From assembly GCA_903892415.1 (NCBI GenBank), contig CAITIQ010000230.1, forward strand, positions 49,399 to 113,398: a stretch of DNA of 64,000 nucleotides, written 5' to 3'. The notes beneath the pieces were generated by a model that did no database searches, was not told the origin of the DNA, and saw nothing but the letters and a program-made list of their open reading frames with translations. Positions 2,797 through 57,188 of this stretch are shown piece by piece. The position numbers and the translations under genes were made by a program. The DNA is from an uncultured delta proteobacterium. Its GTDB lineage: Bacteria; Myxococcota_A; Polyangia; Polyangiales; Polyangiaceae. The stretch's first letter is position 1. Each line of letters begins with the position of its first letter.

Positions 2797-2829
2797 CAGA
2801 CGGCCCGTTAGAAACTATGAAAGGTTTGG

Positions 2830-21000: not shown

Positions 21001-23332
21001 GCTCGCCGTAGCGACCTTGACGATTGAGGATGCGGTCCACACCGCGCAGGGCGGTCAGGCTGCCGGGATCCACGTCGAGCGCGGACTCGTAACGACGTTG
21101 CGCCTCGGGCAGGTTGTTGAGCTGATCTTCGTAAAGCTCGGCCACGCGACAGATCGCCTCGACGCGCGCTTCACCGCGCAAAGCCTCGCTGCGTTTCTCG
21201 AGGATCTTGGCCAGACCTTCGGTGTCGTTGAGAGCTTGATAGATGCGGGTGAGCGCATCGCAAGCGGCGTCATGCCCGGGGTCTTCGGCGATGATCTGCT
21301 CGTACAAATCACGGGCGCGACCCGGATCGGAGAGCTTGGTCTCGAGCAGGTCGGCGGCCTCGGCGCGGATGCGGCGAGCCTTCTCCGGGGTGGCCGCGCG
21401 ATCGGCGCGACGGAGGAGCACCTGGCCGAGCTCATTCCATTGCTGTGCTCGGCGATAAACCTGCGTCATACCGCTGAGTGCGCCCTCGTTGGCTGCGTCC
21501 AGTTGGAGCACGGCCTGGAAGCAGGGCAGACCCAAGTCGGGGCGGGCGATCTTCTCCGAGTACCAAAGGCCCAAGCGGGTGAAGAGCGTGACCTTCGTCT
21601 CGGTGGGCATCCGCGGGTGGTTGGTCGCCTCGGCCAGGATCTGCAGCGCCTCGCCCCAAAGCTTCATGTCGGTGCCAGCCGCTCGCTCGAGATCGGCCGC
21701 GTACTCGTCGTTCTGAACGTCCTGCGCTGCCGCCTGCGCGTAAGCGAAAACGCCCTGCTCGTGATCGTCGAGCTCACGCACGTACAAATGCGCGATCTGG
21801 TTGAAGCAGCGCGCACGCTCGCTGTGGCTCTCGCTCTTTTCGCTGCGCTCGAGCAGCATCTCGATCAGCTCTTCATGTTTGCCGAGGTTGCGGCGCAGAT
21901 CCTCGAGCGCCGTCTGGGCGATCGGATCATTCGGGTCGAGCTCACAAAGCTGCTTGAGCGTCTCCTCCGCGGCGTCGTGTTGTTTGGCGCTCTCGAGGAT
22001 GCGCGCGGCTCGGAACAGCAGCGACTTCTTCGCCTCGATCGCCTTGTCTTTGCCTTCCTCCTCGGGCACTTCCACGCCCTCGGCGGCCATCGCGAAGGCC
22101 TCGGCGACCTTGGTCGGCTCGGCGCCCTCTTCGATCGAGGACTCCAGCGCGAGCGCCGCGTCGTGATCGTTCGGGTCTGCCACGAGGGCGTCCACGCGCG
22201 CCTCGAAGTCGGAGGCCGCTAGCGTCTTGGCGACAGCCGGCTTGCCGATGCCGCTCAACAGCTCGAGCACCGCCGCAGCTGACTTGGGGCGCTTGTCCGC
22301 CGTCTTCTCGAGCAGCTTCAAACAAAGCTCATCCACCTCTTTGTGGATCCAGCCTTTGGGCGCGACGCTCGACGGTGCAGCCGGCGGAGAAGCCAGGTGC
22401 GCCGCGACGAAATCAGCGCTCGAGGTGCCGGTGAAGGGCGGCTTGCCCGTCAGCACTTCGTACAAAATCACGCCGAAGGCGTAAAGATCGCTCGCTACGT
22501 CGGCGGGCTTACCGCGCAGTGATTCGGGGCTGGCGCTCTTGGCCCAGCCCGCGGCAGAGAGGGCTCCACCGAGCCGATCCGCGCCGGCGTCGGTCAGGAT
22601 GGCCTCTTGCGTACCGGCGGCCGTTCGCGTCACGAGCACGTTCTCAAGCTTCAGGTTGCCGTGCGATAGCCGAGCTTGGTGCAGCGCGACCAAGCCTTGA
22701 AGCACGCCCTTGAGGAACGGCTTGGCCTCGTTCAAATGCAGGGCGCCGGAGCGGCTGATGCGCGCCGAGAGCGGTTGCGCCTCGGACAGGCGGTAGCTGA
22801 CGAACACGGTGCCGTCCAAGCTGCCGCTGTCTAGCCCGGCGGCTAGATTGGGGCTCTCGACCTTGGCGAGCAGGCGCGTGTAGGCGATGAAGCGGCGGGC
22901 CACACCGGGGTGAGCCGTTAGGTCCCGGCGGATCAGCCGGAGCACGCGATCTTCACCGTCGCGCTTGGCGAGGTAGGTGGTGGCCCGTGCGCCATCGGCG
23001 ATCTTGCGCACGATGGTGAAGCGGCCAAAGCTCGCCCCGGGCTTGAGCTCCGGATCGGCCGGCATGCCGTTCTTCAACAGGTCACGCACCTTCGCGTCCA
23101 GATCCGGCCGCGAGCCGACCATGGCGTCCACCAAAGCCAGCGTGGAGCTCGTCTCCTGACAACGCTCCACCAACGCCTTTGCGAAGGAGGCTTTTGACGC
23201 CGTCCCGCCTACGTCGTCGGGCGGGAAACCCAGCAGCTCATCGGAGAGAAGCAGAAGCTCTTCGAGCGAGAAAAGCCTCTCTAGCTCGCCGCGAACGATC
23301 TCAGTCGACATGGTCCTCCTCGTCGGCGCCAC
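18044..23332 (-). CDS. Protein (pseudo)kinase domain fused to a very long TPR array
   Basis: N-terminal kinase-like lobe (FGRFTIVRKIADGARATTYLAKRDGEDRVLRLIRRDL, SHGNLKLENVLV, SPESLRGKPADVASDLYAFGVILYEVLTGKPPF) followed by about 1300 aa of TPR-like repeats. Confidence 0.85.
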   Translation of the reverse strand: MAPTRRTMSTEIVRGELERLFSLEELLLLSDELLGFPPDDVGGTASKASFAKALVERCQETSSTLALVDAMVGSRPDLDAKVRDLLKNGMPADPELKPGASFGRFTIVRKIADGARATTYLAKRDGEDRVLRLIRRDLTAHPGVARRFIAYTRLLAKVESPNLAAGLDSGSLDGTVFVSYRLSEAQPLSARISRSGALHLNEAKPFLKGVLQGLVALHQARLSHGNLKLENVLVTRTAAGTQEAILTDAGADRLGGALSAAGWAKSASPESLRGKPADVASDLYAFGVILYEVLTGKPPFTGTSSADFVAAHLASPPAAPSSVAPKGWIHKEVDELCLKLLEKTADKRPKSAAAVLELLSGIGKPAVAKTLAASDFEARVDALVADPNDHDAALALESSIEEGAEPTKVAEAFAMAAEGVEVPEEEGKDKAIEAKKSLLFRAARILESAKQHDAAEETLKQLCELDPNDPIAQTALEDLRRNLGKHEELIEMLLERSEKSESHSERARCFNQIAHLYVRELDDHEQGVFAYAQAAAQDVQNDEYAADLERAAGTDMKLWGEALQILAEATNHPRMPTETKVTLFTRLGLWYSEKIARPDLGLPCFQAVLQLDAANEGALSGMTQVYRRAQQWNELGQVLLRRADRAATPEKARRIRAEAADLLETKLSDPGRARDLYEQIIAEDPGHDAACDALTRIYQALNDTEGLAKILEKRSEALRGEARVEAICRVAELYEDQLNNLPEAQRRYESALDVDPGSLTALRGVDRILNRQGRYGELLEILERQLAIAATPRQKINLLERMAGIQDEEFLDHTKSAETLERILAIDPTHLASLVSLMRHYRALDRWEDVVAGYEKQLKLITEDKARVDALLALGRVLVEQVGSPLRAKTAYERVLEIDPNHAGALESLANVRIATGDAEEAISAVESLASKAEKPEQKSDLWVRAAKMLEEKGDKDGAIERYKAALDASSKNTIAALALRQAYLARGDAASAVELIAREIEVTDGKITKARLYGEMAVLLRDRLKESTRALEAATKAVDLDPTSLLGHTVTADTAFEAGRFIEAAKSYDVVVGRADALPPADAQRVVMRYIESLSKTGSTEKAKSHVETLLKFAPDSPEALMASARVTDGSGDHKRAVVLFQDVLTRFDDKLTMRMRSDALLGLGNARIALGELKEAVAPLAEAHDIDPESNAPLDALSRVYEQTGDWEELIRMKMRRLDSLTGEARTNLLLEVGDIYSQKLNDRTRASKSYVAALDERPEDRRVLTKLMQLYSEEKDWSRLVDVVLKLASMVGDTKQKAKYLHTAAIVAGRQMGDLERAAKFYDEVLELDPSLDKALLEAIGIRGQMRDFESVDRLLKIQLDRATEANDRDKILATFEQLGKLYHDNLGWTSEAIDAFEAAQTLEPDNVARNELLATLYASDPAQYLDKAVAAQKPIIRKNPLKPEPYRLLRKLYTESKRADAAWCLCQALVNMNLAEPDEERFFRRMRPEGPAAAQSRLSNEDWQLLMHSDADPLLTHIFQLIEPAVLKRNGQPLEALGFQAAYALDLLRHPYPMSQTLYYAAGVLGMEPPLTFQNPEDGGGLAFLHAHTPAVVLGQAALALELPQQPAAFIAAKHLTYYRPGLYIRHLVPTGTGLRAWLFAAIRLVVSAFPVAPELEGPVGDNLALLEKSIHGPQRDQLTSSVTKLLQSGAIDLKRWVIGVDHSSDRAGLILANDLEIALEMVKSQDENRERQKELLLFTATEEFFTLRTRLGIAIDS

Positions 23333-23387
23333 AGGCGCTCGGGGCGCGGATGGTACTTACTGGAGCTTTTGCGCGGAAGAGGAACCT

Positions 23388-24386
23388 TCAGTCAATCAAC
23401 CGACTTAGGCCGAACAGGCCAAGAATCAGCAACAACGCCGCCAAAAGCAGCAGCGGCAGCCAGCGGCGGCGGCCCGGGGAGTTGCTCGGCGCCGGTTTGG
23501 AGTCGGGGAGGGCCGCCAAGATGGGCAAGAGCGCTGCTTCGGCTTGGCCGGCGTCGGCGAAGCGTTGGCTGGCCTCTCGGTTGACCGCCTTGGCGAACCA
23601 GCCGTCGAAGGCTGGGCCAAGCTGTTTTGCTCCGAGCTCGCGGCAGCGAACCGAGGCTGGGGCGATCGGCTCACGCAGCATCTCCACGGCCAAATCGAAG
23701 GCGGTGGCTCCCTTGGCGTTCGCGCCGCGCCAATAGATCTGGCCGCTCAAGAGCCGAAAGGTGAGCAGGCCAAGCGCCCATACATCGGCGGCCGGTTTGA
23801 TGATCTGGCCCTCTTTGCCTTGTTCCGGCGCTGTCCAGAGCGGGGTTCCCAAGCCCGGTGCAGTACCGCCGTGGGTCGTCTCTCGAACGACCTTTGCGAC
23901 CCCAAAATCCAAAACCTTCAGCTCGGTACGCTGGCCGGGACTCGTGGTTTGGCACAGAAAGAGATTCTCCGGCTTCAAGTCGCGATGCACGATGGCCGCT
24001 TCATGTGCTTTGGCCAAGGCGCGGAACAGCTCTTTGACCAGATACACGGCCTCGGACGTGGGCAACTGCGGCTCTTGCGCGAGCCGTTGCTCGAGGTTGA
24101 TGCCGGTCAGCAGCTCCATGGCGAAGTACGGTTGGCTCTTCGGGTCTTGCGACCAACCGGAGTCGAAGACGCGCGCGATGTGCGGGCTTTGGATGCGTTC
24201 ACCTACGAGCGCCTCCGATTGAAAGCGCGCTACGAAGCTCGCGTCGCCGGCCAGGTCCCTGTTCATCAGCTTGAGCGCGCAAGCCCGCTGACCGCGTTGG
24301 TCGGTCGCTTCGTAGACGATGCCCATTGCCCCTTGGCCGAGCACACGATGGATCGTGTACCTTCCGTTGAAGACGCTGCCGGGCAT
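23388..24386 (-). CDS. Serine/threonine protein kinase with C-terminal TM helix (start could be 24434)
   Basis: GRYTIHRVLGQGAMGIVYEA, CALKLM, IVHRDLKPENLFLC, KVLDFGVAKVV, WTAPEQGK; terminal WLPLLLLAALLLILGLFGL. Confidence 0.92.
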   Translation of the reverse strand: MPGSVFNGRYTIHRVLGQGAMGIVYEATDQRGQRACALKLMNRDLAGDASFVARFQSEALVGERIQSPHIARVFDSGWSQDPKSQPYFAMELLTGINLEQRLAQEPQLPTSEAVYLVKELFRALAKAHEAAIVHRDLKPENLFLCQTTSPGQRTELKVLDFGVAKVVRETTHGGTAPGLGTPLWTAPEQGKEGQIIKPAADVWALGLLTFRLLSGQIYWRGANAKGATAFDLAVEMLREPIAPASVRCRELGAKQLGPAFDGWFAKAVNREASQRFADAGQAEAALLPILAALPDSKPAPSNSPGRRRWLPLLLLAALLLILGLFGLSRLID

Positions 24387-24432
24387 CAAACGGTGGCTGG
24401 TCACGGTCGCCGAGAGTACCTCGTTTCGCTTC

Positions 24433-24861
24433 ATGAAGCCGTTCACAGCAAGAGTGACTCGCAGTGTTGGTTTGGTTGGGCTTGCTTGGCTCGTTGCGGC
24501 CTGCGCGAGCTCGAGCTTCGAGCCGGAGCGAATTAGCCGAGTACCGTCGCGCGTGCTGACGGCGGAGGATCTGCGGACACGCGTTGGCCGGTTGGGTCGC
24601 GAGTTGGGGGTGGTCACCGAGTCGGTAACGGTGCACGGCCAATGTTTGAGCGACTGTGCTCCCAGCTCGACCCCGGGCAAGTGCGTGGCGATGTTTGGTG
24701 AGCGTGAAGGTGGCAAGCCCTTCGCCGCGCTGCTCGATCAGCAGGCGGACCTCGAGCCGGGCACGCGGTATGTGTTGCAAGGCTCGGTCGAGCTGAGCCC
24801 GGCGGTGCGCGACCATTGGCTACTGCGCGCGGAGGTGCTGGCGGTGGTGGTGCCGGAGTAG
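24433..24861 (+). CDS. Hypothetical lipoprotein
   Basis: MKPFTARVTRSVGLVGLAWLVAACASSS signal/lipobox. Confidence 0.7.
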   Translation: MKPFTARVTRSVGLVGLAWLVAACASSSFEPERISRVPSRVLTAEDLRTRVGRLGRELGVVTESVTVHGQCLSDCAPSSTPGKCVAMFGEREGGKPFAALLDQQADLEPGTRYVLQGSVELSPAVRDHWLLRAEVLAVVVPE

Positions 24862-26634: not shown

Positions 26635-27921
26635 TCAGCTCTTGGCCGCCTTGACGACCTCTCCAAGAGGCGAGGCCAGCCGACTCTTGTGACCGCCTTT
26701 GCTGACCTCTGCGTCGCCTGCAAACGCCGCGAGGTCGAGCCCTTTGATGGCGGCGGCCAACAGGTCGGGCAGCCGCTCGGGCGTACAGCCGAAGCAGGGC
26801 ATCCCGAGCGTTGCGAGCTTCTTGGCGAGGTCCTCGTTGTAGGCCGGTTTGCCTTGATCACTGATGGCTAGCAGCGTGACCGCTTTGACGCCGCTCTCGA
26901 GCAGTCCCTCCATCTTGCGCACGAAGCGCGCTTCGTTGGGGCTGGTGTCGTGCAGGTCGGCCAGCAAGATGTAGAGCGTCTTGGCCGGCGTGTGCATGAA
27001 GCGCTCGCAGTAGCTGGTCGCCATCCAGTAGTCCTCGGCGCCGCTGAGCTGAATGCCGAACAAGAGGTCGACCGGGTCGTGACAAAGCTCGGTTAGGTCC
27101 ACGACCTCTTCGTGATTGAACGCCACCACGTGGGTCTCGACCGCCGGGATGCTGGCGAGGATCGCCCCCATGATCCCGCCGTAGATCAGCGAGCCGTGCA
27201 TCGAGCCGGACTGGTCCATCGCGATGATGATGTTCCACTGGTTCTGCCGCTGTTGACGGCTGAAGAAGGACATCTCCGCCGGGACGATGGTTTTGAGCTC
27301 GGGCAGGTAGTTCTTCAAATTGCGCCGAATGGTGCGGGGCCAATCAAGGTTCGGCAGACTGCGAAACGGGCTGTGCCGGTTGCGGTCGAGCGCGCCGCGG
27401 ATCGCTTGTGCGAATTGGTTCTCGAGCTTCCGCCGGACTTCCTCGACGACCTTGCGCACCAAATCGCGAGCGGCCTCTTTGGCCTTCTCCGGCACCAGGT
27501 TCTTCAAGCTCAACAGCGTGGCTGCGAGATCCACCGACGGTTCGACCTGACACAAGAGCTCCGGCTCGAACAGCAGCTCCTTCATCCCGCGCCGTTCGAT
27601 CGCGTCGGTTTGGATCAGCGCGACGACGTCATTGGGGAAGAACGTGCGCACCTGGTGAAGCCACTTCGCCACTTTGGGCGTGACGCGGCCTTTGACCGTC
27701 CCACCCCCGCGGCGATCGCGCGAACGCTCTTCCCACTGCTCGCGCGAGAGCTCCTCATCGCCGTCGTCTCCGCCGTAAATAGCGTCGAGCGCTTCATCCA
27801 TCTCGAGCCCGTCGCCGGAGAGCGAGCACGGAAGGCCGCCGCTGCAGCTCGAGAGCGCCTCTTGCGCCTCCTTCCCGAGAATCAGACGCCAGCGTTGAAG
27901 TTGGTTCGGGTCCACGGCCAC
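26635..27921 (-). CDS. VWA domain protein (last gene of the SWIM/MoxR/DUF5682/VWA operon)
   Basis: MIDAS motif NIIIAMDQSGSMHGSLIYG; ILLADLHDTSPNE. Confidence 0.88.
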   Translation of the reverse strand: MAVDPNQLQRWRLILGKEAQEALSSCSGGLPCSLSGDGLEMDEALDAIYGGDDGDEELSREQWEERSRDRRGGGTVKGRVTPKVAKWLHQVRTFFPNDVVALIQTDAIERRGMKELLFEPELLCQVEPSVDLAATLLSLKNLVPEKAKEAARDLVRKVVEEVRRKLENQFAQAIRGALDRNRHSPFRSLPNLDWPRTIRRNLKNYLPELKTIVPAEMSFFSRQQRQNQWNIIIAMDQSGSMHGSLIYGGIMGAILASIPAVETHVVAFNHEEVVDLTELCHDPVDLLFGIQLSGAEDYWMATSYCERFMHTPAKTLYILLADLHDTSPNEARFVRKMEGLLESGVKAVTLLAISDQGKPAYNEDLAKKLATLGMPCFGCTPERLPDLLAAAIKGLDLAAFAGDAEVSKGGHKSRLASPLGEVVKAAKS

Positions 27922-27923
27922 GG

Positions 27924-30305
27924 CTACAGATCTCCAAAGTCGAATTCGTTGAGTTCGCCGAGCTTCTCCTCTTCGGCCTCGGTCATCGGCTTCTCCAAAA
28001 GTTCGGCCGCTTCATCTGCGCGAACTCCCCAGTGTTCGGCGAGATTCTCGGCTATCTGCCTTTTCTCGCGTTTGGAGAAGGCACCGAAGGCGCGCCGCAG
28101 GAACACCACTGCGCGACGGAACTCGGTCTCGTCGAGTGCCGCTACGTAGTCCGCCAGCTGCGTCCACAAGGCCTGCCTTGCCAAGAGCGCATAGCGGTTG
28201 CGCCGGGCCAAGCCTTGGAACCAGCCAGCGCCGAGATCGGCCGGCACGCCGGGAGAGAGCCTGCGTGAGACCTCGCGCGCCAGCTCCTCATTGGGCAAGA
28301 GGCCGCGTTCGAGCAAGATCGCGCAGGCGTAGCCGGAGAGCGTGGGGTTGCGATCGTCTGCGTCGGAGAGCGCCCGCAGCGCCTCGATCCAGCGCGGTTC
28401 ATCGACGCGATCGCTGAACTCGAGCGCGACGGCGTTCAGCTCATCCAGCCCAACGAGCATCGCCTTGGCGGCTTCGTCGTTGCAGCCGGCCGAGGCGTGG
28501 AGCGAAAGCGCGCCTTGCACGAACAGCTCCTCGATCAGCGGAACCAGCGGCTCGCCATCGAACTGGCGTACATCGCCGTAACGCACCGTTTGGCCGAGCG
28601 CGCGGGCGGCGTGCGCGATCGCCGCGAAGTCGGACGAGCCCGAGGTGAGCTCTTGAAGCCGCTTGCGGGCGGCCTCCATCGCCCGCATCAAACCGCACAA
28701 GCAAGCGTCGCGAACGACGTCCCCGGCCGCCGCGATGTTGGCGCAGTTCTCCAACGTTTGGTTGAAGCGGTAGCCGACGGCGAGCTCCACCGTCTCACCG
28801 AGCAACACCGATTCCACCAATTGGATCTCGCATTCGGGCGTCCAGCGGAGTGTCCATTTTTCGGCCCAGGTCGTCGACTGCTGCTTCGTCGCGAGCGGCT
28901 CGGAGAATTGAACGCCGAGCACGCGCAGGCGATGGAAGAAGCGCGAACGGTGGAGGTCGAGGAAGGCGGCCTCCTCGGTCTTCGCCTGGCGGTTCTCACG
29001 CAGATCGAGGCTGAGTTCTTCGGCGGCTTGCTTCTTGTACTTCTCGAGCTTGAGTCGCGTCAGCTCGCGCGCGAAATCGGCTTGGATCGAGGTGCGGCTG
29101 ACGCCGTCGGGGAGCGAGCCGATTTGGTCGCCGATCTCAACCTCTTTGAGCGCCCCTGCGATCGCCAGCACCTCTCCCTGGCCGAGCAAGGTGACTGCGG
29201 CTTCGCGCAGATCGCGCAAGGTCGGCGCTAGGCCGCCGTAGAAGGCCGACATCGTCTTGGCCAGGCGAACGCCCTCGATCACCTCGGCGGTCGAACGATG
29301 CGTGCCGGATGCGCGCGTGTGCCTCGCGATCAGCGACAGATACCGCGCAGGCGTCTCGCTCAGTTGATCGCGCTGCAAGGCGTCCCACATCAACTCGAAG
29401 TAGGCCGGGGCTTGATTGCCGGCGCCGTAGCCCGATTGTGAGGAGAGCTTGAAGTACGAGTAGGGCATGAGTGTCAGCTTGCCCGCGCGTCGCGGCAGCG
29501 AGGCCAGCTCCTCGTCGCTCATCGCTGGCTGCTCGCGCGTGAGCACCGGCGCATGGAAGGCACCAACCACGGCCACGATCTGTTCGGGCTTGTAGCCCTC
29601 GGCTACGTAGGCCTCGATCTGGCGGCGCATGTACGCTTCTCGCACCAGGTTCTCCGCTCGCCAGCGCGGTGAATCTTGTTCGAGCTCACGCAGCGCGGCC
29701 CCGTACTCGAAGGCCGCCAAACGGTAGCTGTCTTCGCTCTGGTTGTGCTCGAAGGCCCGCTCCCAATAGGTCTCGTGGTCGGGCTCCCCGGCCTGTTTGG
29801 CGACGAGCTCGTAGAAGGAAGGCTCGCGCTCCGGCCGATGCGATAGCGGGGCCTTCTCGTCCTTTGACGGGGCTGCCGCGCCTGCAGGGCCTTTCGCGCG
29901 CGCCTGCTCGGCTTCCTCAGCGGCCTCTTCGGCAGCTTGGCGCCTCGCTTCGACCCAGCGAGCCTCTTTGAGATCGGCCAGGCCCAGAAATACCTCCGAC
30001 GGCAAGTCGATGAACGCCGTGCGCACGCCCTTCTGCGCGGCCCACGTGAGCGCCTGATATTCGGGGCTGTAGTTCGCGAGCGGGTAGACGATCGTCCGCA
30101 CTGGGAGCGAGTCGGTGTAGGCCAGGATCGCGATCGGCGGCTTCGAGTCGCTGCGCACCAGATCCGCGATCAATCCGCCGGCGTCGGCGAGCCCTTCAAT
30201 CAACACGAGCTTCGGCTTGATGCGATCGAGGAAGCGACGCAGATGCCACGCTCCCATCGGCGATAGGTGCCGCACGCCAAAGACGTGGATCGAAGAATCG
30301 CTCAT
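27924..30305 (-). CDS. DUF5682-like protein (TIKI/TraB/ChaN-like features)
   Basis: HVFGVRHLSPMGAWHLRRFLDRIKPKLVLIEGLADA ... IVAVVGAFHAPVLTRE; tightly packed with VWA and MoxR genes. Confidence 0.78.
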   Translation of the reverse strand: MSDSSIHVFGVRHLSPMGAWHLRRFLDRIKPKLVLIEGLADAGGLIADLVRSDSKPPIAILAYTDSLPVRTIVYPLANYSPEYQALTWAAQKGVRTAFIDLPSEVFLGLADLKEARWVEARRQAAEEAAEEAEQARAKGPAGAAAPSKDEKAPLSHRPEREPSFYELVAKQAGEPDHETYWERAFEHNQSEDSYRLAAFEYGAALRELEQDSPRWRAENLVREAYMRRQIEAYVAEGYKPEQIVAVVGAFHAPVLTREQPAMSDEELASLPRRAGKLTLMPYSYFKLSSQSGYGAGNQAPAYFELMWDALQRDQLSETPARYLSLIARHTRASGTHRSTAEVIEGVRLAKTMSAFYGGLAPTLRDLREAAVTLLGQGEVLAIAGALKEVEIGDQIGSLPDGVSRTSIQADFARELTRLKLEKYKKQAAEELSLDLRENRQAKTEEAAFLDLHRSRFFHRLRVLGVQFSEPLATKQQSTTWAEKWTLRWTPECEIQLVESVLLGETVELAVGYRFNQTLENCANIAAAGDVVRDACLCGLMRAMEAARKRLQELTSGSSDFAAIAHAARALGQTVRYGDVRQFDGEPLVPLIEELFVQGALSLHASAGCNDEAAKAMLVGLDELNAVALEFSDRVDEPRWIEALRALSDADDRNPTLSGYACAILLERGLLPNEELAREVSRRLSPGVPADLGAGWFQGLARRNRYALLARQALWTQLADYVAALDETEFRRAVVFLRRAFGAFSKREKRQIAENLAEHWGVRADEAAELLEKPMTEAEEEKLGELNEFDFGDL

Positions 30306-30309
30306 GGCG

Positions 30310-31449
30310 CTACTCGTTCATTTCGGAGCACGCTGTGTACAAGGCACGCCACTCGGAGCCGCGCTTCTTGAGCACGTTGGACAGGTACTCCTGCCACACC
30401 AGGCGGTCTTTCTCCTCGTCTTTGACCACGGCACCTTGCAAGCCGCTGGCGACGTCCTGCGAACTGACCGAGCCGTCGCCGAAGCTGCCGGCGAGCGCCA
30501 TGCTGTTGGCCAACACCGAGATCGCCTCGGCCGTCGAGAGCACGCCGCTCGGCTGCTTGAGCTTGGCCTTGCCGTCGAGGGTTTGGCCGGTGCGCAGCTC
30601 ACGGAAGATGGTGACCACCTTCTCGATCGCCTCGTCGGCTGGGATCTTGGCTTTGAGTTGCAGGTTGCTGGCGAGATCGTGGACGCGGCGGCGGACGATA
30701 TCGATCTCGGCTTCAATCGTTGCAGGCGTCGGTAGCACGACGATGTTGAAGCGCCGTTTGAGCGCGGCCGACATATCGTTGACCCCGCGATCACGCGTGT
30801 TGGCCGAGGCGATCACCGAGAAACCGCGAGTGGCTGGGGTCTCGGTCTCGAGCTCAGGGATCGAGATCCGCTTCTCCGACAACAAGCTGATCATCGCGTC
30901 CTGCACCTCCGATGCGCAGCGCGTAATCTCTTCGAAGCGCGCGAGTGTACCGGTCTCCATCGCGCGGAGGATCGGGCTGCGGATCAACGCGTCTTGGCTC
31001 GGGCCGTGGGCGATCAGCATGGCGTAGTTCCAGGAGTAGCGGATCGCCTCTTCGGTCGTGCCGGCCGTGCCTTGGACGACCTTGGTCGAGTCCCCGCTGA
31101 TGGCCGCGGCCAAGTGCTCGCTGAGCCAGCTCTTGGCGGTGCCTGGCTCGCCGATCAACAAGAGCGCGCGATCGGTCACCAAGGTGCTGATGGCGATCTG
31201 CACCAACCGCTCATGTCCGATGTACTTGGGGCTAATCGTCAGATCGCCGACCGTGCCGCCGCCGATATAGGTCTGCACGGCGCGCGGCGAGAGCTTCCAC
31301 CCGGGTGGGCGGTCGTAGGTGTCGGCTTTGGCCAGCGCTTGCAGCTCCGCTGCGAAGCCGACCTCCGCTGGAACGCGCAGCAAGTCGCTGTCTGGCTTGC
31401 TGCCCTGGGTCGTCGGGGGCGTCTCGGCGCCGTCTTTCTTCTTGGCCAT
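30310..31449 (-). CDS. MoxR-type AAA+ ATPase
   Basis: LLIGEPGTAKSWLSEHLAAAI; SEKRISIPELETETPATRGFSVIASANTRDRGVNDMSAALKRRFN. Confidence 0.92.
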   Translation of the reverse strand: MAKKKDGAETPPTTQGSKPDSDLLRVPAEVGFAAELQALAKADTYDRPPGWKLSPRAVQTYIGGGTVGDLTISPKYIGHERLVQIAISTLVTDRALLLIGEPGTAKSWLSEHLAAAISGDSTKVVQGTAGTTEEAIRYSWNYAMLIAHGPSQDALIRSPILRAMETGTLARFEEITRCASEVQDAMISLLSEKRISIPELETETPATRGFSVIASANTRDRGVNDMSAALKRRFNIVVLPTPATIEAEIDIVRRRVHDLASNLQLKAKIPADEAIEKVVTIFRELRTGQTLDGKAKLKQPSGVLSTAEAISVLANSMALAGSFGDGSVSSQDVASGLQGAVVKDEEKDRLVWQEYLSNVLKKRGSEWRALYTACSEMNE

Positions 31450-31480
31450 GGCTTTCTCCTCGTCTGCTCGCGTGGTCACG

Positions 31481-33271
31481 CTACTTCGCGGCCCGGTGCC
31501 TGTCTTTGAGTTGCTCAATCGCTCCCACCAACTGGTCGATGAGCCGCTCGTGCATCGTGGGTAAGAGCGCTTCGAGCGGGGCGATCGCCGTGGCCGGTAA
31601 GGCCGGAATCTCCCGAGCGATCAGCCAAACGTGCGTATGCGCGCGACCTTTGACGGCCTCCGCGTTCTTGGCCGCGAGCAAGCCGAGCACCGTCTCGACC
31701 AGCTTTGGGTGCTCGCAGCGAATCAGCGCTCCAAGCAAGTGAGGCCACCTGTCATCGGACTTCTCTTGGTCGGCCCTGCTGCTTAGATACGCGAGTAGGG
31801 CGGCATGCCCAGGCTGTGACACCGCTTCGACCAATGGCAGGTCCTCCAGGGCGATCGCTAGGTCGATCCAGCGCGTGTCGAGCACGGGCTGGTCGTCGGT
31901 TCGACGACTGCCGTAGTGCCAACTCGCTTGGCCACCCGCCCGGATCGCCGTTCGAATGGCTTCCCAGCGTTGTTGTTCCGCCGACTTCGCCCCAGTCCCG
32001 CGGCGCGCCGTTTCGGCGGTCGGCCCAAAGCGCTCGTAGACCTCCGCCGGGCCGAGCGTTCGGCGCGCAGCCAGGAAGGCGTGCTGCAGCGCGGCTCCGG
32101 TAAGCTCCGCCTGCTGGTCGATCAGCCGTTTGGCGAGCGCGGTGTCTCCGCTCCCCATGAGGAATGCCACGCGTTCATTGACGTCCGCTCCAGAGGGCGT
32201 GGTCTTGATCTTCGCGAGGAGCGCCCGTTTGTCGAATAGTTCGATCAGCACTGCAGAGGCGTTTGGATCCACGCGCCCAACAAACACGTGCAGCCACTGC
32301 AGCAACCTCAGGGTCTCCTTGCCTTGCTCGTCCTTCATGGCCAGCAATTGGGCGAGCTGTGCGCGGGTCTGCTCGACCAGCCAGGCGCTGAGGGCCGGCC
32401 AGGTCGCGTCGCGCAGCGGTTGGATCAGCGACTCGAGGTCCTTGGGTACGCGCGCCTTGAGCACCGAAAGCGAGGCTTCGGATTGGACCTGCATCAGCGC
32501 CGAAAGCGCCGCCACGCGCACGTCCTTGGCCTTGGACGTGGCCTGCTCCAAAAGGAAGCCGAGGTCCTCCTCGTCCGAGCCGAGGCAGGCGATCGCCGCG
32601 ACGCGCAGCTCCTTCGAACCTTCCTCGAGCGACTGCTTGACGATCGCTCTTGCAGCTTGTGGATCCAAGGAATGAAGCAGGCGCAGCCTGCGTGTGTCGC
32701 TTACGCGCCCACGCTTCGCCTCGAGCTGGGCCAAAAGCTCGCCGATGATCGCCCTGCCGTACTTGGGGAGCACCTCGCGTTGGATCCGTTCGGCGATCTC
32801 GGGGTACGGATCATCGAGCGCCCGCAACGCCGGTAGCACCAGGCGCAGGTCGTTGAAGACCCCCTGCTGGATCGCGTCGGCCACGATCTCCAAGCGGCCG
32901 CTGCCAGTGGTTGCAAGCGCCTCGAGCAACGGCTTGAGCGTGCGCGCGCTCGCTTGCGTCGGGGACGCGCGAAACTGCACCAACTCGATCGGCTCGAGGG
33001 CGCCCGCCGCTCCTGTCTCGCCCTGCGTGTAGAGGATCGCGCTCAGCAGCCCGGCGAGGTCGAGCAAGGCCTGCGGCGCGGTCTTCTCGTTGGCGTCCAC
33101 CACGGCCTGTGCAGCCTGCGCGACCTTGGCGAACACAGGCGCCTTTTCGCCAGCCTTTTCGAGCGCAGGGATCAGCTTCTTGAGGCGAAAGTCACCGGGC
33201 GCTACGGCGCTCCCGGCGATCGCCAGCCGCCGAGCTTCTTCCTGGGTTTGCGCCAATACAGCGATGCTCAT
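31481..33271 (-). CDS. HEAT/ARM-like repeat protein of the MoxR-VWA operon (DUF5691-position gene)
   Basis: Helical repeats (LRVAAIACLGSDEEDLGFLLEQATSKAKDVRVAALSALMQVQSEASLSVLKARVP); start assigned at MSIAVLAQTQEEARRLAI by comparison with the paralogue at 55216-56940. Confidence 0.78.
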   Translation of the reverse strand: MSIAVLAQTQEEARRLAIAGSAVAPGDFRLKKLIPALEKAGEKAPVFAKVAQAAQAVVDANEKTAPQALLDLAGLLSAILYTQGETGAAGALEPIELVQFRASPTQASARTLKPLLEALATTGSGRLEIVADAIQQGVFNDLRLVLPALRALDDPYPEIAERIQREVLPKYGRAIIGELLAQLEAKRGRVSDTRRLRLLHSLDPQAARAIVKQSLEEGSKELRVAAIACLGSDEEDLGFLLEQATSKAKDVRVAALSALMQVQSEASLSVLKARVPKDLESLIQPLRDATWPALSAWLVEQTRAQLAQLLAMKDEQGKETLRLLQWLHVFVGRVDPNASAVLIELFDKRALLAKIKTTPSGADVNERVAFLMGSGDTALAKRLIDQQAELTGAALQHAFLAARRTLGPAEVYERFGPTAETARRGTGAKSAEQQRWEAIRTAIRAGGQASWHYGSRRTDDQPVLDTRWIDLAIALEDLPLVEAVSQPGHAALLAYLSSRADQEKSDDRWPHLLGALIRCEHPKLVETVLGLLAAKNAEAVKGRAHTHVWLIAREIPALPATAIAPLEALLPTMHERLIDQLVGAIEQLKDRHRAAK

Positions 33272-33330
33272 AGACGTTTTTCCTTCGCAAACGTTGGACG
33301 CGGTGCAAGCGGGTCGGCCGAGTTCTCGCG

Positions 33331-34812
33331 CTACAGCGTCAAGCGAATCACCTGCTGCTCGGTCACCACCGAGAGCAGCTTGACCTGCAGCTTGCGCGTA
33401 TCGAGGTCTTGGCGGAAGCGAACGATCAAGGTCGGCGCGCTCAACGCTGCCTTCGGCAGCAGCGGGACCAAATGGCAACTCGGTGGCTCCTCCGACATGC
33501 CGCGATCGGTGAGCGTCAGGCGGTCCCCTTTCTCGTCTTCGATCACGAGCACGCCATTCACCTTGCCCAAGCGCTGGGTGCGCAAGGCGTAGATCGGCGT
33601 CTTGTCGGCCAGCGGTGACTTGAGCGTATTTTTGACCTCCTTGATGGTGCTGGCGAAGTCGGGGCGCGCGAGCTCACACACCCGCTGCAGATCGCCCGGC
33701 TCGATCGGTCGGCTGGTCATGCCGTCCCAGCGGATGCGGGGATTGACGTCGCCCGGGTAGATGCAAAGTTCGGGTGTCTTCGCGACCTGGAAGAAGCTGT
33801 CGTCGCTGTGAATGAACTTGGCGGCCTTGTACGGGCGGAAGTTCTGCGTCAGGCCGATGCGGCCGGTGCGGAGGTTCATCCACACGCCGGTGTCGACGAA
33901 CTCTTTGCGCGCTGTGTCGTTGTGCATGTTGAAGGAGAGTTGCAGCAGCTCGACCTCGCTCTCGACCAGGCCAGCGGCTTTGAGCTCGCTCAACTGCCAG
34001 GCGTGACCAAGCCACGCCGCGATCGGCGACTCGGTCTCCGGCTTGAGCTCCGGATCCTCGAGGCGCTTCTGCAGATAGGCGCGCCCTTGTTTGACGAGGG
34101 CGTTGAGGCGGGTGAGCTGATCGAGCGCCTCGCTGAACACCGACTCGCGCACGACGTTGGAGACGCTCGTATCGAACTCGCCGAGCTCGTTGGCGAACAG
34201 CTGGGTGTAGCGATGCAGCGCCGCTTGCGCCCCGGGGAGGTAGGCGTTGCCCAGCTGTTTGGCCTTCTCCTCGATCTCCCGTGCGGTCTTGGCGCTTATG
34301 TTGCCGATACCGAGCCGCATCAGATCCAGAGTGAGCGTCTCCAATAGATCGATGCCGTCGAGCTGGGCCGTGATCTTCTTGGCCAGCGCCGACTTATTGA
34401 CCTTGGTTGGCTTGGCCGCGGACTCCTTCTTTTTCTCCGACTTGTTCGCGAGCTTCTCGCGCTTCTCGAGCACGTCGGCGGGAACCTCCGCGACGGTGAA
34501 GGCGGCCCGCTTTTGCACGTAGGCGTACATCAAGCCGACGGTGTGTTTGCAGGGGAACTGCCGGCTCGGACAGTTGCAGCGATAGGTCGGCTGTTCGGGC
34601 CGCACGAAGTCGCACGAGCAAAGGTACGGATCTGCGCCGGAGCCCAAGCACTCGGCGAAAAGCAGCGAGCCTTCGGCGTCGAGGTGGAGCTTGGTGAACC
34701 TGCCCTTGAGCAAGAGCGCCCTCCCGTTCTTGGCGGCGTCGGCGTTGGGCGCTGCCGCCGAAACGAAGGCTTCGTCGATCGAGATCATTCGCAGCTCCGG
34801 TGAGAGTCGCAC
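33331..34812 (-). CDS. SWIM zinc-finger protein
   Basis: SWIM motif CSCDFVRPEQPTYRCNCPSRQFPCKHTVGLMYAY; first gene of the operon. Confidence 0.9.
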   Translation of the reverse strand: MRLSPELRMISIDEAFVSAAAPNADAAKNGRALLLKGRFTKLHLDAEGSLLFAECLGSGADPYLCSCDFVRPEQPTYRCNCPSRQFPCKHTVGLMYAYVQKRAAFTVAEVPADVLEKREKLANKSEKKKESAAKPTKVNKSALAKKITAQLDGIDLLETLTLDLMRLGIGNISAKTAREIEEKAKQLGNAYLPGAQAALHRYTQLFANELGEFDTSVSNVVRESVFSEALDQLTRLNALVKQGRAYLQKRLEDPELKPETESPIAAWLGHAWQLSELKAAGLVESEVELLQLSFNMHNDTARKEFVDTGVWMNLRTGRIGLTQNFRPYKAAKFIHSDDSFFQVAKTPELCIYPGDVNPRIRWDGMTSRPIEPGDLQRVCELARPDFASTIKEVKNTLKSPLADKTPIYALRTQRLGKVNGVLVIEDEKGDRLTLTDRGMSEEPPSCHLVPLLPKAALSAPTLIVRFRQDLDTRKLQVKLLSVVTEQQVIRLTL

Positions 34813-34912: not shown

Positions 34913-35320
34913 CTAGACGAAACGAACCCACGCCTGCGCGAGGGCTCGAAATGCGGCTTGCTTCGCCTTGAAATCGCTTCGGGCGCCGAGCGAGACGAGG
35001 CAACGGTCTTTCGCCATCCACTTCTCGATCAGGCCGGCGGGATCCTCGACTGGGACGCCTGTCTCAGCGGTCGCCTTCTTCTTGATACCGGTGAACAGGA
35101 TCAGCTGAAGCGAAGTTTCTGAGCGCAGATGCACCGTGGCGAAGAAGTCGTTCGCGTTGCAAAAGCTCACCGAGTTCCACTTGATCTCCTCGCGAATCGA
35201 CGGGCTCATACCGAGCATCAACTCGCGCAGCGCGTTGATCTCCGCCTCGAGCGGGTGGCCCTTGCTGGAGAGAAACGTGGCCACGTCGCTGCTCGCCCCA
35301 GTCGGTGGTTTCTTTCGCAC
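34913..35320 (-). CDS. DUF1801 domain protein
   Basis: HPLEAEINALRELMLGMSPSIREEIKWNSVSFCNANDFFATVHLRSE; GTG start assumed. Confidence 0.75.
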   Translation of the reverse strand: MRKKPPTGASSDVATFLSSKGHPLEAEINALRELMLGMSPSIREEIKWNSVSFCNANDFFATVHLRSETSLQLILFTGIKKKATAETGVPVEDPAGLIEKWMAKDRCLVSLGARSDFKAKQAAFRALAQAWVRFV

Positions 35321-35360
35321 GGCCTGGACTCTACCGCATGCATGGGACAAGACGTCACGG

Positions 35361-35690
35361 ATGAAGGCCGAGTACCAGCATTCAGACGGTGAGGTATTCA
35401 CGCTCGAGCTCTCGCCCGATCAGTCCCTGCGCGACGCGCTGATCAAAGCAGGTCGCCCGCCACACAACGCGACCCGCTTCGCGAGCTGCCAAGGCTTCGG
35501 CACCTGTGGGACCTGCGCAGTACAGATTGAAGGCGAGGTCGAGCCGAAGTCGCCTGGCGCCATTGAAGCGTGGCGTCTCAACTTCCCGCCGCACAAGCGC
35601 GAGAGCGGCCTGCGCCTCGCCTGTCAGGTGAAACCGTGCGGCGACCTCAAGGTCAAAAAGCACCCGGGCTATTGGGGGAACGAAGTCTAA
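35361..35690 (+). CDS. 2Fe-2S ferredoxin
   Basis: CQGFGTCGTCAVQIEG ... RLACQVKPCGDLKV cysteine pattern. Confidence 0.88.
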   Translation: MKAEYQHSDGEVFTLELSPDQSLRDALIKAGRPPHNATRFASCQGFGTCGTCAVQIEGEVEPKSPGAIEAWRLNFPPHKRESGLRLACQVKPCGDLKVKKHPGYWGNEV

Positions 35691-35700
35691 GGGCGGGCGC

Positions 35701-37482
35701 TCACGCGTCGGTAAGCCGCTCTCTGGTCCGCTGATGAAGGTCCTCTAAAACTCTCCAGCGCAAGGCCAAGAACGGCGTTCTTTCGGCATCGGCGCTCACG
35801 ATCGAGTCGCCGAGAATAGCAACCGTGCGTGCGCTTGGAGCCAAGCTCTCGTCGTTCGCGTTGGACATCCTTCTAAACTCTGCTCGAAGGCGAGGCAGAC
35901 GCGCTGGGTCGAGGCTCGCTCTCTTGACGTGCGTCACCAGAGCGCTGATCGAGGCCCAGTCGTCGGGTGCCCGAAGCAATGCATCGAGCGCTCCGTCGGT
36001 TGCGTGCCAACAGCACGCAAGTTGCCAGCGCAGGACCCAACGTATCGCGTCCTCACCAGGGGGAGGTATCGAGGGCGAGAGGACGAGATCCACGAGTTCC
36101 TCCTCGCCGATCCGCGCAGGGAAGGCGGATGCCACAAGATCCTGGGGACGTTCCAGTCTGATCGTCCACGCTTGTACAACGCGCACGAGTTCGCCGCTCA
36201 ATGCTCCAGGCACTCGCGAAGCGAGCTCCCCGTACTCCATTGAGCGAAGGCCCGAGCTTGCGTCGATCGCAGGCGAGCCAACGCCAGGCAACGATAGTCG
36301 CCACGTCGCGAGCGCGCTCGGACAGATTGGACGCTCCCCACGGATGTGGACCTTCGAGGGTTCGTCGTGTGAGCCGACGCGCTTGATCAGGTCTCTGATT
36401 ACCCCGATCAGAGGATCGGTTGGGTCTGGAAAATGGGCTCGATAGGCGAGGAGATCACGCTGCAGTAGCTGAGCAAATGGGGACGTAGCGCTGAGTTTTG
36501 AGTCCTCTGTACGATCGGCGAGGGCCCGCGCGTAGAGACCGAGCGCGCGCATATCGTCGGGGATCGGCTCGCTCGATGAGCGGGCTCGCTCGAATTCGTC
36601 CGCAGCTTGGCTGACGCAGCCGTTCGCTAGGAGTGCACGAGCGAGTCGGAGTCGAGTGGGGGCATCCTCGGGCCGTAGTACCGTTGCGCGTTGGCTCCAC
36701 TCGAGGCGCGCTCGCTCGTCACCGTTCTCCTGAGCTGCCTCGGCGGCTTCGACCGCAGCTGCCCAAGAGGCCGGTGGCGCTTGGCGCGCGATCCAGGCAA
36801 GTGCAGCCGACGGCCCGTCCAAGAGTCGAAGCAGCTTGGAGCCGGCGACAGGAAGCGACTCGTCGCTTGGACGCTCCGCGCTTACAGTACGGAGGACGAG
36901 CATTGCCGATTCGAGGTCGGATTTGTCTATCGATCGTTCGTTTGCGTCGGTCCGCGCAACCAAGCTCGCGATGCCACGGCATAGCGTGGAGGTGAGGAGC
37001 CGGTCGCGGTCCCGCTTCGACTTGGTCCAGCGCACGATCCAGCGAAGGTAGCCGGGCGATCCATCGAATGCCGCAGCTCGGAAGACGTGGTCGACGGCGT
37101 CGTCGATCATCCCGAGGCGAGCCAGCGCCCAACCTCGGACAGCGCAGAGCCCGAAAAACGCCCCATTGGACAGCGCAAGAACCTCGAGGGGGGCCTTGGT
37201 CGACGCGAGGATATTGTCCAGCTGGCGTTGTAGCGCCGCCGAATGTGGGTCCAGCGCGAGTGCACCCGCCATTTGCTCGAGGGCAAACCGCAGCTTCTTG
37301 GCCTCAAACGCCCAGTGAGCTGCACGCGCGTAGTCCTGGGCAGTCGGCTTCTCGAGCCAATCCGCGGCGCTCGGCGGCGTGTGCGAAAGAAGGAGCGGCT
37401 TCAATGTTGATGCAGTTAACAGCGCAGCCAGTCTACCATCGAGCGTGGCCAGAACAGCACCCGTTCCCAATCTTCCCCCCAT
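35701..37482 (-). CDS. TPR-like hypothetical protein divergent from the RHS toxin (start uncertain)
   Basis: ARAAHWAFEAKKLRFALEQMAGALALDPHSAALQRQLDNIL; helical repeat composition; the ORF extension to 37773 is antisense to the RHS Gly-rich linker and is not believed. Confidence 0.65.
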   Translation of the reverse strand: MGGRLGTGAVLATLDGRLAALLTASTLKPLLLSHTPPSAADWLEKPTAQDYARAAHWAFEAKKLRFALEQMAGALALDPHSAALQRQLDNILASTKAPLEVLALSNGAFFGLCAVRGWALARLGMIDDAVDHVFRAAAFDGSPGYLRWIVRWTKSKRDRDRLLTSTLCRGIASLVARTDANERSIDKSDLESAMLVLRTVSAERPSDESLPVAGSKLLRLLDGPSAALAWIARQAPPASWAAAVEAAEAAQENGDERARLEWSQRATVLRPEDAPTRLRLARALLANGCVSQAADEFERARSSSEPIPDDMRALGLYARALADRTEDSKLSATSPFAQLLQRDLLAYRAHFPDPTDPLIGVIRDLIKRVGSHDEPSKVHIRGERPICPSALATWRLSLPGVGSPAIDASSGLRSMEYGELASRVPGALSGELVRVVQAWTIRLERPQDLVASAFPARIGEEELVDLVLSPSIPPPGEDAIRWVLRWQLACCWHATDGALDALLRAPDDWASISALVTHVKRASLDPARLPRLRAEFRRMSNANDESLAPSARTVAILGDSIVSADAERTPFLALRWRVLEDLHQRTRERLTDA

Positions 37483-40400
37483 CCCTGGAATGTGCCCGAG
37501 CGTCGCGGTCCTTGGCGGAGGAGGGAACGGCGGCGGTGGCTCAGGAAACGGGGCTGGTGACGGAAACGGAAACGGCCCCGGAGACGGCGACGGAAGCGGG
37601 GACAACGCACAGAGTGATGGCACCGGAAGCGGCGCGTGCGGCACGGGAGGCGCAGGAGCCTGCTCCAACTGCGGGCACAACGTGGCGGTAGGCGATCCAG
37701 TCGATGTCGTGTCGGGCAAGGTCTTCACGGTCCCCGTGCGTGAACTGCGTCTCCCCGGCACTTTCACCCTCACGTGGCTTCGGTCCTATGGGGCCGACAA
37801 CCGTCGCGTGGACGTGGGCATGGGCTTTGGTTGGTCTCACAGCCTGGGATGGCGCTTGGAGGAGCATCGGGATCACGTGCTCGTTCGCAGCGGCGACGGA
37901 TCGCGCACGGTGATGCCGCTCCCTCGCCCAGGCGAGCAAGTGCGGCTCGGCGGCTGGGGAATCCTTCGCGCGGACGAGTTCTATGTCGTTCGGCCGGGCA
38001 ACGAGTTCATCCACTACTTCGAGCGCCAACCGGGGAGCGACTACTTCCGCCTCGCGTTCGTCAAGTACCGCAACCGCGGGGTGATCTCGCTCCAATACGA
38101 GGGCACGCGCCTCGCCCGCGTCATTGACTCGGTTGGCCGCGTTATCCTGCTCGAGCGGGGACCCAACGATCGCGTCGCGTCGATTGCACTGCCGGACGCA
38201 CGAGGAAACACAATCGTCTTCGCGCGCTACGGCTACGACTCGGAGGGCAACCTCGTAACCGCGGCGGATGCGGATGGCGCAGTCACGACCTACGCGTACG
38301 ACGACGACCATCGCCTCGTGCGGCTGCAGTACCCGAGCGGGCTCACGTTCCATTTTCGCTACGACGCGAACGGCCGCTGTATCGAGACGTGGGGCGAGGG
38401 CCCCGACCTACCAGCAGCGCTCGCCCAGGACCTCCCCGCGACACTCGTGGATGGGTCGGTCGCGCGCGGTATCTTCCACTGCAAGCTCGACTTCGGGGTC
38501 GATGGCTACAGTGAAGTCGTCGATTCGACGCGACTGCGCCGCTTCTTCGGTGGTCCGGGCGACGCGGTTGCCAAAGCAGTCGACCCGCGTGGTGGGGTAA
38601 CGACGCGAGAGTTCGACGACGCGGGGCGCGTCGTCAGCCAGACGGATCCGAACGGTTCGAAGTGGCTCTATTGGTACGATGACGTGGACGAGATCATTCG
38701 CGAGATCGACCCCGAGGGACGCGAGGTGACGCTCCGTCGTGACGGCGCGGGTCGGGTCGTCGAGATGGTGGATGCAGCGAAGGGCGTCGTCCGCGTCGAT
38801 CGCGATGACTCGGGAGAGATCGTCGCCATTCATGACCAAGCGGGCGCGACCAAGCGCTTCGTGCGTGACGCACGTGGTCTCGTCGTCGAATGCCACGACC
38901 AGCGCGGCGCCCGACATGTGTACGAGTACGATACGCACGCCAACTGCATCGCGAAGCGTTCGGTCCGCGGTGGCGTGTCCCGTGCGTCCTACGACTCGTG
39001 GGGGCGCCTCCTTCAGGAGACGGACGCGCTGGGGTTCTCGCGGAGCTACACCTATTCGAACGGCGGTAAGCTCCTCACGGGGCGCGACCGCTCGGGTGGA
39101 ATCACGAGCTTCACCTACGACAAGATGGGCAACTGTACCTCGCAGACCGAGCCCGACGGCACCACGACGAGCTGGGAGTTCGGTGGTCTCAATTGGTGCA
39201 TCCTCGAGCGCCTAGCCACCGGTGACGAGACACGGATCCAGTACAACCGCGAGGGCTTCGCGACGCGCCTCGTCAACGCACGAGGGCAGACATATGAGCT
39301 GGAGCGCGACCCAATCGGCCACATCGCGTCGGAGACGAACTTCTTCGGCCAGCGAATTCGGTTCGGGTACGACGCGACGAGTCGCGTCGTTTGGTACGAC
39401 GAAGGCAGCGGCAAGCACGTTCTAGAACGCGATCAAGTGGGCAATGTCATTTCGCATACGGCTCCAGACGGCGCCTCGCGAACATTCGAGTACAGCCCGC
39501 GCAACGAACTCGTCTCGGCCAAGAACGGCAAGACCTCGTTTCGATGGACGCTCGATCCGGTCGGTCGCGTCCTACGCGAAGAGCTGACGGTGGACGAGGT
39601 CACGTATACCGTCGAGTCAGAGTTCGATTCGACCGGAGACCGCGTCGGGGTGCGCACCTCGCTCGGTCATCGACTGCTCTTTCGCCGCGACGTAGCAGGT
39701 CAGGTCATGAGCGCGATGGACGCGCGCGGAGACGTGGTGTCGGTGCGCCGGAACGAGATCGGCTTGGCCGTCGAGAGCAACCTCTCGGCGGGTGGCACGA
39801 TCAAGGACACCTACGATCCGTCGAGGCGACTCCGACGACGCGAGGTCCTGCCCGCCAATCATCGCCCGGCGGCGGGCGCGGGTGAGCCCGACTGGATCGG
39901 CGGGACAGCGCCCGGCGTGAGCGATCATCAGTTCGACTACGGGGTAAACGAAGAGCTGGTCAGCGTTCGCGGTACCAGCGACGTCGACTACGAATACGAT
40001 TTGCTCAAGCACCTTAGGAAGGCGCGTCGCAACGGGCGAGTCTCGGAGTTTCGGAGCGACCCCAACGGAAACCATCACGAGGTGGGCTCCAGCGCGCTCG
40101 CACGGCACTACGACGACGGCGACCGGCTGCTCTCTCTCGGTGCGACCAAGTATGTCTACGATGCACGCGGTCGGCTTGTCGAAGAGAGCACCACCGAAGG
40201 CGGAAAGACCTCCACGAAGCGCTTCGCCTGGGACGACTTTGGCATGCTCCGCACCGTGGAGAAGCCGGACGGTTCGAAGGTCGAGTTCGAATACGACGCG
40301 TTCGCGCGACGCCTCGCCAAGCGCGTCACGCGACGCGGCAAGCGCGCGCAGACGCAGCACTACGTCTGGGATCTCGTGAGCATGGTGCATGAGGTGTCCG

Positions 40401-43103: not shown

Positions 43104-43204
43104 AGATGCTGGCTTGGAGCGTGCTCGTCACGTCGCACCCGGATGAGCTGCTTGCGATCGATCCGACGTTGGGGGTCCAGCGGATTTACGACGGCGCCAC
43201 TTGA
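43104..43204 (+). pseudogene. Remnant of a PIN-domain toxin C-terminus
   Basis: FKMLAWSVLVTSHPDELLAIDPTLGVQRI; near-identical core to 62880-62967 (DLLAIDPTLKVQR). Confidence 0.6.
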
Positions 43205-56940: not shown

Positions 56941-57188
56941 GTCCTGCTCCGATGAGTCGCGCGCGATGGCACCAACGACCGGTTGAGCATGCCTAGCCCA
57001 AAGGCGACTTTCAACCATGCCGCTGACAATCTCGCGGCCGGGCACGACATTTCGTCGGACCTGAACTTCCAAGTCGAGGGCCCAGTGACCAACATCGGCC
57101 TCGTTCGCTTCTATGCGAGCGGCGAAGCAGAACTGACAGCGCGTGGCTCCACTCGCGGTGGATGGCGCTGGGCCGCGCGTATGCGGCT

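Follow-up and report, generated by a model that had tools for sequence, protein, structure and literature searches.

Several described systems pair a MoxR-type AAA+ ATPase with a partner containing a von Willebrand factor A (VWA) domain: NorQ/NorD, RavA/ViaA, CbbQ/CbbO, and CoxD/CoxE. In NorQ/NorD, the VWA protein inserts a finger into the MoxR ring and is twisted when ATP is hydrolysed, which remodels the bound client (PMC13036017). Escherichia coli K-12 has two MoxR proteins: RavA; and YehL, which represents a named MoxR subfamily (PMC3893208). We describe here a related system encoded in a 64,000-nucleotide stretch of contig CAITIQ010000230.1 (the window), part of a 10.85 Mb genome in 673 contigs from an uncultured delta proteobacterium. 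Open reading frames and Pfam matches delimit five adjacent minus-strand genes at 26635-34788, for SWIM, HEAT, MoxR AAA+, DUF5682, and VWA proteins. The system shares with the described chaperones a MoxR-type ATPase and a VWA partner, here of the CoxE type; it differs in its MoxR subfamily, and in having a TIKI-like protein along with SWIM and HEAT proteins instead of a known metalloenzyme client.

The yeh operon and its relatives

In E. coli K-12, the genes yehL (MoxR), yehM, yehP (VWA), and yehQ (SWIM) stand in a row, and a profile search finds DUF5682 in the E. coli genome as well. By blastp, the window MoxR protein is 40% identical to YehL over 361 residues, the VWA protein 32% identical to YehP over 388 residues, and the DUF5682 protein 24% identical to YehM over 794 aligned columns, whereas the SWIM protein matches YehQ only at chance level. 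Both loci keep MoxR, DUF5682, and VWA genes in the same order, with a SWIM gene in the operon. The E. coli locus differs in carrying WGR (yehF) and DUF4132 (yehI) genes upstream, in placing SWIM last, and in having no HEAT gene. Assignment of the window MoxR protein to the YehL type relies on pairwise full-length homology and conserved Walker residues; the genes adjoining it encode the DUF5682 and CoxE-type VWA proteins. Judged by sequence, the window operon is a YehL-type MoxR/VWA system with the same core as yehL-yehM-yehP. The original prediction, made from the letters of the window, had described an operon of unknown function. That much stands, in that no paper found in the open literature gives YehL a function, but the identity with the yeh operon had been missed. 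Nor is DUF5682 or DUF5691 named in any of the 5.39 million open papers searched, although subscription papers lay outside the search and a prior description is possible.

The five genes are tightly packed on one strand, as originally predicted for 26635-34812. They encode the SWIM zinc-finger protein (485 residues; 33331-34788), the HEAT-repeat protein (596 residues; 31481-33271), the YehL-type MoxR ATPase (379 residues; 30310-31449), the DUF5682 protein (793 residues; 27924-30305), and the VWA protein (428 residues; 26635-27921). Conservation and ribosome-binding-site-like sequence support starts at 34788 for SWIM (M9, with an alternative GTG start at 34812), 33271 for HEAT (the conserved M70), and 31449 for MoxR (M24, the first ATG). 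The listed reading frames overlap because their calls begin upstream of these starts, the HEAT frame being open up to 33478 and the MoxR frame up to 31518; after correction, the gaps between the genes are 59, 31, 4, and 2 bases. A scan for sigma-70 promoters found none.

Conservation in E. coli is extensive. The yehL-Q stretch occurs in 5,321 of 5,426 genomes, at least 80% of it in 5,181, and all but 2 of its 5,342 places are chromosomal. The ratio of nonsynonymous to synonymous substitution (dN/dS) between one pair of strains, K-12 and BEN2908, is 0.020 for yehL and 0.061 for yehP, values that indicate strong purifying selection on both genes. This comparison covers yehL and yehP. In BEN2908 (locus L202 in our set, where L-numbers label fetched loci), yehM at 1100-3372 is annotated as frameshifted, and yehL and yehP are intact. 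A yehQ value of 0.94 was discarded: an indel, it seems, keeps the two frames from aligning.

A search with the MoxR alignment yielded 80 loci, most of which keep the order SWIM-HEAT-MoxR-DUF5682-VWA. A chance origin of the five-gene set is excluded by this recurrence together with the family E-values. The original prediction had placed a recurring SWIM-DUF5691-AAA-DUF5682-VWA neighborhood in actinobacteria and had looked to lack of conservation elsewhere for its refutation; the order proves to be kept far more widely, in Planctomycetes, Verrucomicrobia, Paenibacillus, Bacillus, Lachnospiraceae, other Clostridia, Bacteroidota, and the spirochaete Treponema. MoxR and VWA genes lie beside DUF5682 in 64 of the 65 loci with enough flank. 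When loci were found through DUF5682 alone, MoxR and VWA genes were both present in 19 of 22 Polyangiales loci and in all 8 plasmid records. The five-gene loci have no conserved sixth gene.

The neighborhood with DUF5691 does exist as a sister form in Deinococcus, Rhizobium, Methylosinus, and the actinobacterium Nonomuraea (DUF5691 match, E=8e-135). It shares the order and four of the five families with the window; its second gene, however, is DUF5691, which the window HEAT protein is not detectably. DUF5691 was considered for gene 2 and found no support at the depth searched: neither the window HEAT protein nor those of Firmicutes match PF18944, and hhalign between the window HEAT profile and DUF5691 is weak (30%). 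Another form, with DUF4132 upstream and sometimes WGR, is found in E. coli, Iodobacter, Streptomyces, and several Polyangiales loci. A divergent DUF5682 clade (L056, L057, L059) has the order VWA-MoxR-DUF5682.

Fusions offer a view of the partnerships. In L036, L041, L055, and Streptomyces L147, a single reading frame encodes both DUF5682 and VWA; in Hymenobacter L146, SWIM opens a DUF5691-annotated protein. Such fusions suggest a working partnership of DUF5682 with VWA, and another of SWIM with its helical partner.

The window MoxR protein is 72-74% identical over its full length to planctomycete and verrucomicrobial copies (75-78% over the hidden Markov model envelope), and 64% identical to the closest copies among the window's own relatives. 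All five window proteins have their nearest relatives among the planctomycete and verrucomicrobial loci L062, L064, and L065, and the five families show correlated pairwise distances (r=0.83-0.96 across 66 loci, a value that shared species history also raises). These shared nearest loci and correlated distances fit joint inheritance of the five genes, with horizontal transfer probably involved. Within the window's class the system is patchy and multi-copy, with 62 of 192 genomes over the cut-off and up to 5 matches in each; an accessory role there is possible.

The DUF5682 protein

The DUF5682 protein matches PF18934 over residues 22-766 (E=7.9e-149), and the original prediction had called it TIKI/TraB-like. 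The sequence evidence supports this description. A profile of DUF5682 residues 1-300 (112 members) was aligned by hhalign with a TraB profile of 17 sequences from related genomes, scoring 93.4% (E=2.4e-7), in comparison with 0.1-0.2% for control profiles of MoxR and VWA. Within the TraB alignment itself, conservation falls on the same G, H, E, R, and G-A-x-H, and the four DUF5682 motifs follow the TraB order: GxxH, E, R..M, GxxH. The first GxxH is G10-V-R-H13 (30267-30278, minus strand, like all features of the operon), with H13 present in all 112 homologues that have the column; the second is G248-A-F-H251 (29553-29564), with G248 and H251 present in 113 of 113. E82, D100, E186, R206, R222, and M226 likewise are invariant in the 113 homologues, and H13 and E37 wherever the column is present, among sequences of 22-67% overall identity.

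The AlphaFold model (mean predicted local distance difference test score, pLDDT, 88.9) has an alpha/beta N-terminal part, with an order of elements that suits a TIKI fold, followed by a long helical remainder. The predicted layout places a TIKI/TraB-like domain at about residues 1-290 (29436-30305), as also suggested by the TraB profile match and motif order, before a helical C-terminal half. H13, E37, and the second GxxH sit at or just past strand ends in the model. Foldseek against viral models ranked a Marseillevirus TraB protein second (probability 0.99, but E=0.054). A sequence search of solved structures for TIKI relatives gave nothing useful. An hhalign score of 63% between the C-terminal part and VWA was set aside as probable contamination, from merged envelopes of fused reading frames.

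With the TIKI/TraB/PrgY family, then, DUF5682 has in common a significant profile match and the ordered GxxH, E, R, and GxxH motifs; it differs in its long helical C-terminal half, and in falling below Pfam detection (a Pfam scan gave no TraB match). One described TIKI enzyme relies on two His, two Glu, and a conserved basic residue (PMC6254334); DUF5682 has the His pair, one Glu, and Arg. These would form a putative catalytic His-Glu-Arg-His set and make the protein a candidate hydrolase. Overall, support for the TIKI/TraB-like assignment is good from sequence and modest from structure.

Partner proteins and neighboring genes

The window MoxR protein matches AAA_5 (E=1.3e-36). Its Walker A motif, GEPGTAKS, lies at 31129-31152, and residues G123, G126, and K129 are invariant in 117 homologues; E196/E197 and R255/R256 also are invariant among those aligned. 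The originally noted MoxR ATPase with Walker motifs is thus borne out. Among solved structures, the best sequence match of the MoxR profile is midasin (Rea1/Mdn1; E about 1e-23), likewise a machine combining AAA+ and a metal ion-dependent adhesion site (MIDAS). Midasin, however, is a single giant eukaryotic protein, whereas the ATPase and VWA of the window system are separate.

The VWA protein matches VWA_CoxE (PF05762, E=2e-35). Its MIDAS had been described as intact, which is true in part: D236, S238, and S240 of the DxSxS element (D236-Q-S-G-S240; 27202-27216) are invariant in 105 homologues, and the MIDAS Asp D322 is retained, but Glu296 (27034-27036) occupies the threonine position. This column holds Thr in 98 of the 105 homologues, Glu in 5, and Asn in 2. 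Glu occurs only in the window and in L064, L065, L035, and L039, a small clade. By alignment, the window MIDAS is not fully canonical. Metal binding is still plausible, because the integrin beta I-like MIDAS also has Glu at this position.

The SWIM protein scores 17.7 bits against Pfam SWIM, just under the cut-off of 19.6. Even so, the originally recognized SWIM zinc finger is well founded: the ligands of its C-N-C-x6-C-K-H motif (C79, C81, C88, H90; 34543-34578) are conserved without exception in the 75 aligned homologues having those columns. The AlphaFold model (pLDDT 91.4) shows the SWIM element, a helical middle, and a C-terminal tandem OB-like region (residues 283-493; 33334-33966). Foldseek against the PDB matched this model over about 210-230 columns with AIM2/IFI16-type HIN domains, RPA, and other OB-fold proteins, with E-values from 4.6e-4 upward but target-normalized TM-scores of just 0.3-0.4; the HIN matches have E-values of 5e-4 to 2e-3 and probabilities of 0.96-1.0. 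Because of these matches, tandem OB folds are likely in the model, and the SWIM protein may bind nucleic acid through them.

The second gene, originally read as a helical-repeat protein, indeed reads as HEAT-repeat (HEAT_2, 26.5 bits, just under the cut-off of 27.7), and is present in most five-gene loci. A second HEAT copy, 49% identical, lies about 20 kb from the operon (55216-57072, minus strand), with no convincing Pfam matches among its neighbors. Loci L071, L100, and L121 contain a tandem pair of HEAT genes inside the five-gene operon.

Upstream of the SWIM start by about 125 bp, a minus-strand gene at 34913-35401 resembles DUF1801 (25.3 bits, cut-off 27.2) and possibly is co-transcribed with the operon. 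Downstream of the operon, at 18044-24716 (minus), a 1762-residue kinase-TPR protein adjoins a Ser/Thr kinase. Elsewhere in the window are an RHS-repeat protein (37379-41446, plus) carrying a Pput_2613-like deaminase domain close to its C-terminus (PF14427, E=1.4e-11), a HEAT_2 protein after it (41443-43083, plus) that could be its immunity partner, and an efflux transporter of the AcrB/AcrD/AcrF family (43128-47432, minus).

Proposed mechanism and competing explanations

Homology argues for a MoxR/VWA chaperone or remodelling machine, as the original prediction had it. Our best explanation is a MoxR/VWA ring that remodels or gates DUF5682, with SWIM and HEAT as a targeting arm; taken whole, we hold it about as readily as we doubt it. 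MoxR would form the ATP-driven ring. The VWA protein would dock on this ring in a physical complex and hold its client via the MIDAS, as in NorQ/NorD. The built-in partner or client would be DUF5682, which cycles of MoxR/VWA might open, gate, remodel, or activate. The SWIM-OB protein and HEAT (elsewhere DUF5691) would be an arm that recognizes the target, possibly bound to nucleic acid. Here we infer the direction of action (MoxR/VWA on DUF5682), as well as enzymatic activity, substrate, and physiology.

Several observations weigh against this explanation. In some Polyangiales loci, VWA is missing or MoxR is encoded on the opposite strand (L052, L050). The confident TraB alignment spans only 37 columns, those near the first GxxH and the Glu; it takes a low-stringency realignment to bring in, in the right order, R222/M226 and the second GxxH. 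Profiles of Ere (2.6%) and ChaN (15%) gave no significant hhalign match to DUF5682, and Foldseek of the whole DUF5682 model against the PDB returned helical-repeat matches only, with nothing at E<=0.001. Because published members of the TIKI family are not all obliged to be metal-dependent enzymes (PMC6254334), metal loading of DUF5682 would be a guess, and a non-enzymatic, ligand-binding role for its TIKI fold is possible.

The operon might instead serve metal-cofactor maturation, as do CoxD/CoxE, NorQ/NorD, and CbbQ/CbbO, with DUF5682, SWIM, and HEAT as accessory carriers. The window VWA is of the CoxE type, and yehF, the WGR gene that precedes the E. coli operon, lies at the map position of molR (molR1) and is presumably that gene. 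The gene molR, at 47.3 min, is tied to molybdate use in the portion of Lee 1990 relayed by PMC4245954. Furthermore, NorQD inserts iron (PMC13036017), and a yehM mutation is listed in copper-evolved populations (PMC12409786), albeit as one gene in a long list. However, the five-gene loci offer no conserved sixth gene as possible client, and DUF5682 retains a complete TIKI-type residue set. We consider maturation unlikely.

Two further explanations, both improbable, turn on what DUF5682 does. In ATP-dependent proteolysis, which the original prediction had raised in a regulated form, MoxR/VWA would unfold substrates for a DUF5682 protease. Conservation of the four motifs is compatible with this, and some TIKI enzymes are proteases (PMC6254334); yet esterases and haem binders also are found among TIKI relatives, the MoxR proteins investigated to date resemble chaperones (PMC3893208), and there is no sign here of peptidase activity or of a threading arrangement. 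Conversely, DUF5682 could be a scaffold that catalyses nothing, in an operon that works purely as an assembly chaperone. Its large helical half would suit a scaffold, midasin is a ribosome-assembly AAA+ protein, and deletion of molR1, the neighboring gene, causes a synthetic growth defect when combined with deletion of lepA, for translation factor LepA (PMC4245954). Nevertheless, H13, E37, R222, G248, and H251 are essentially invariant across the homologues, unusual for a dead site. The molR1/lepA and copper-yehM observations are weak leads to the physiology of the E. coli locus.

The original prediction also proposed a defence machine. In an anti-phage or conflict system, SWIM and HEAT would sense an invader, MoxR/VWA would set a threshold, and DUF5682 would be the effector. 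Ternary conflict systems combining MoxR, VWA, and a third component, as in the window, have been proposed (PMC7159879); moreover, HIN domains are among the structural matches of the SWIM OB region, the system is patchy and multi-copy in the window's class, and the plasmid copy L148 adjoins type I restriction genes. However, the conflict paper does not include SWIM, TIKI, TraB, or YehL, none of the other components of its systems was found in the window operon, and its bpMoxR model scores 26.3 bits on the window MoxR protein, under the 27-bit cut-off. PADLOC on the five proteins gave only a weak AAA match (mad8, E=8e-4), and a phage collection of 50,697 records contained a single homologue. The 112 flanking proteins taken from 20 loci showed scattered PADLOC matches, with no family matching more than three proteins and no recurring system (though there was no matched random control), and by Pfam are mainly transporters, tRNA synthetases, peptidases, and similar ordinary families. 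Defence is poorly supported, and the least probable of these explanations, because the operon is near-core in E. coli, yehL and yehP are under purifying selection, and the flanking genes are ordinary. A constitutive maintenance or stress function is more likely.

The preferred explanation, a MoxR/VWA machine acting on DUF5682, has a bolder form: an AAA+/VWA-gated TIKI-family hydrolase, targeted by the SWIM-OB protein, that would be an unrecognized ATP-dependent machine for protein processing, shared by almost every E. coli and by many bacterial phyla. This form is speculative. By analogy with the known MoxR/VWA chaperones, the five genes may encode a widespread bacterial protein-remodelling machine, counterpart of the uncharacterized yehL-M-P-Q. 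Of the two MoxR systems in E. coli K-12, that of YehL is the one for which the literature searched yielded no function. The near-invariant residues of the TIKI/TraB-like DUF5682 protein provide targets for point mutants that would test the machine's role, and the operon's wide distribution and near-core presence in E. coli make a tractable organism available for such functional tests.

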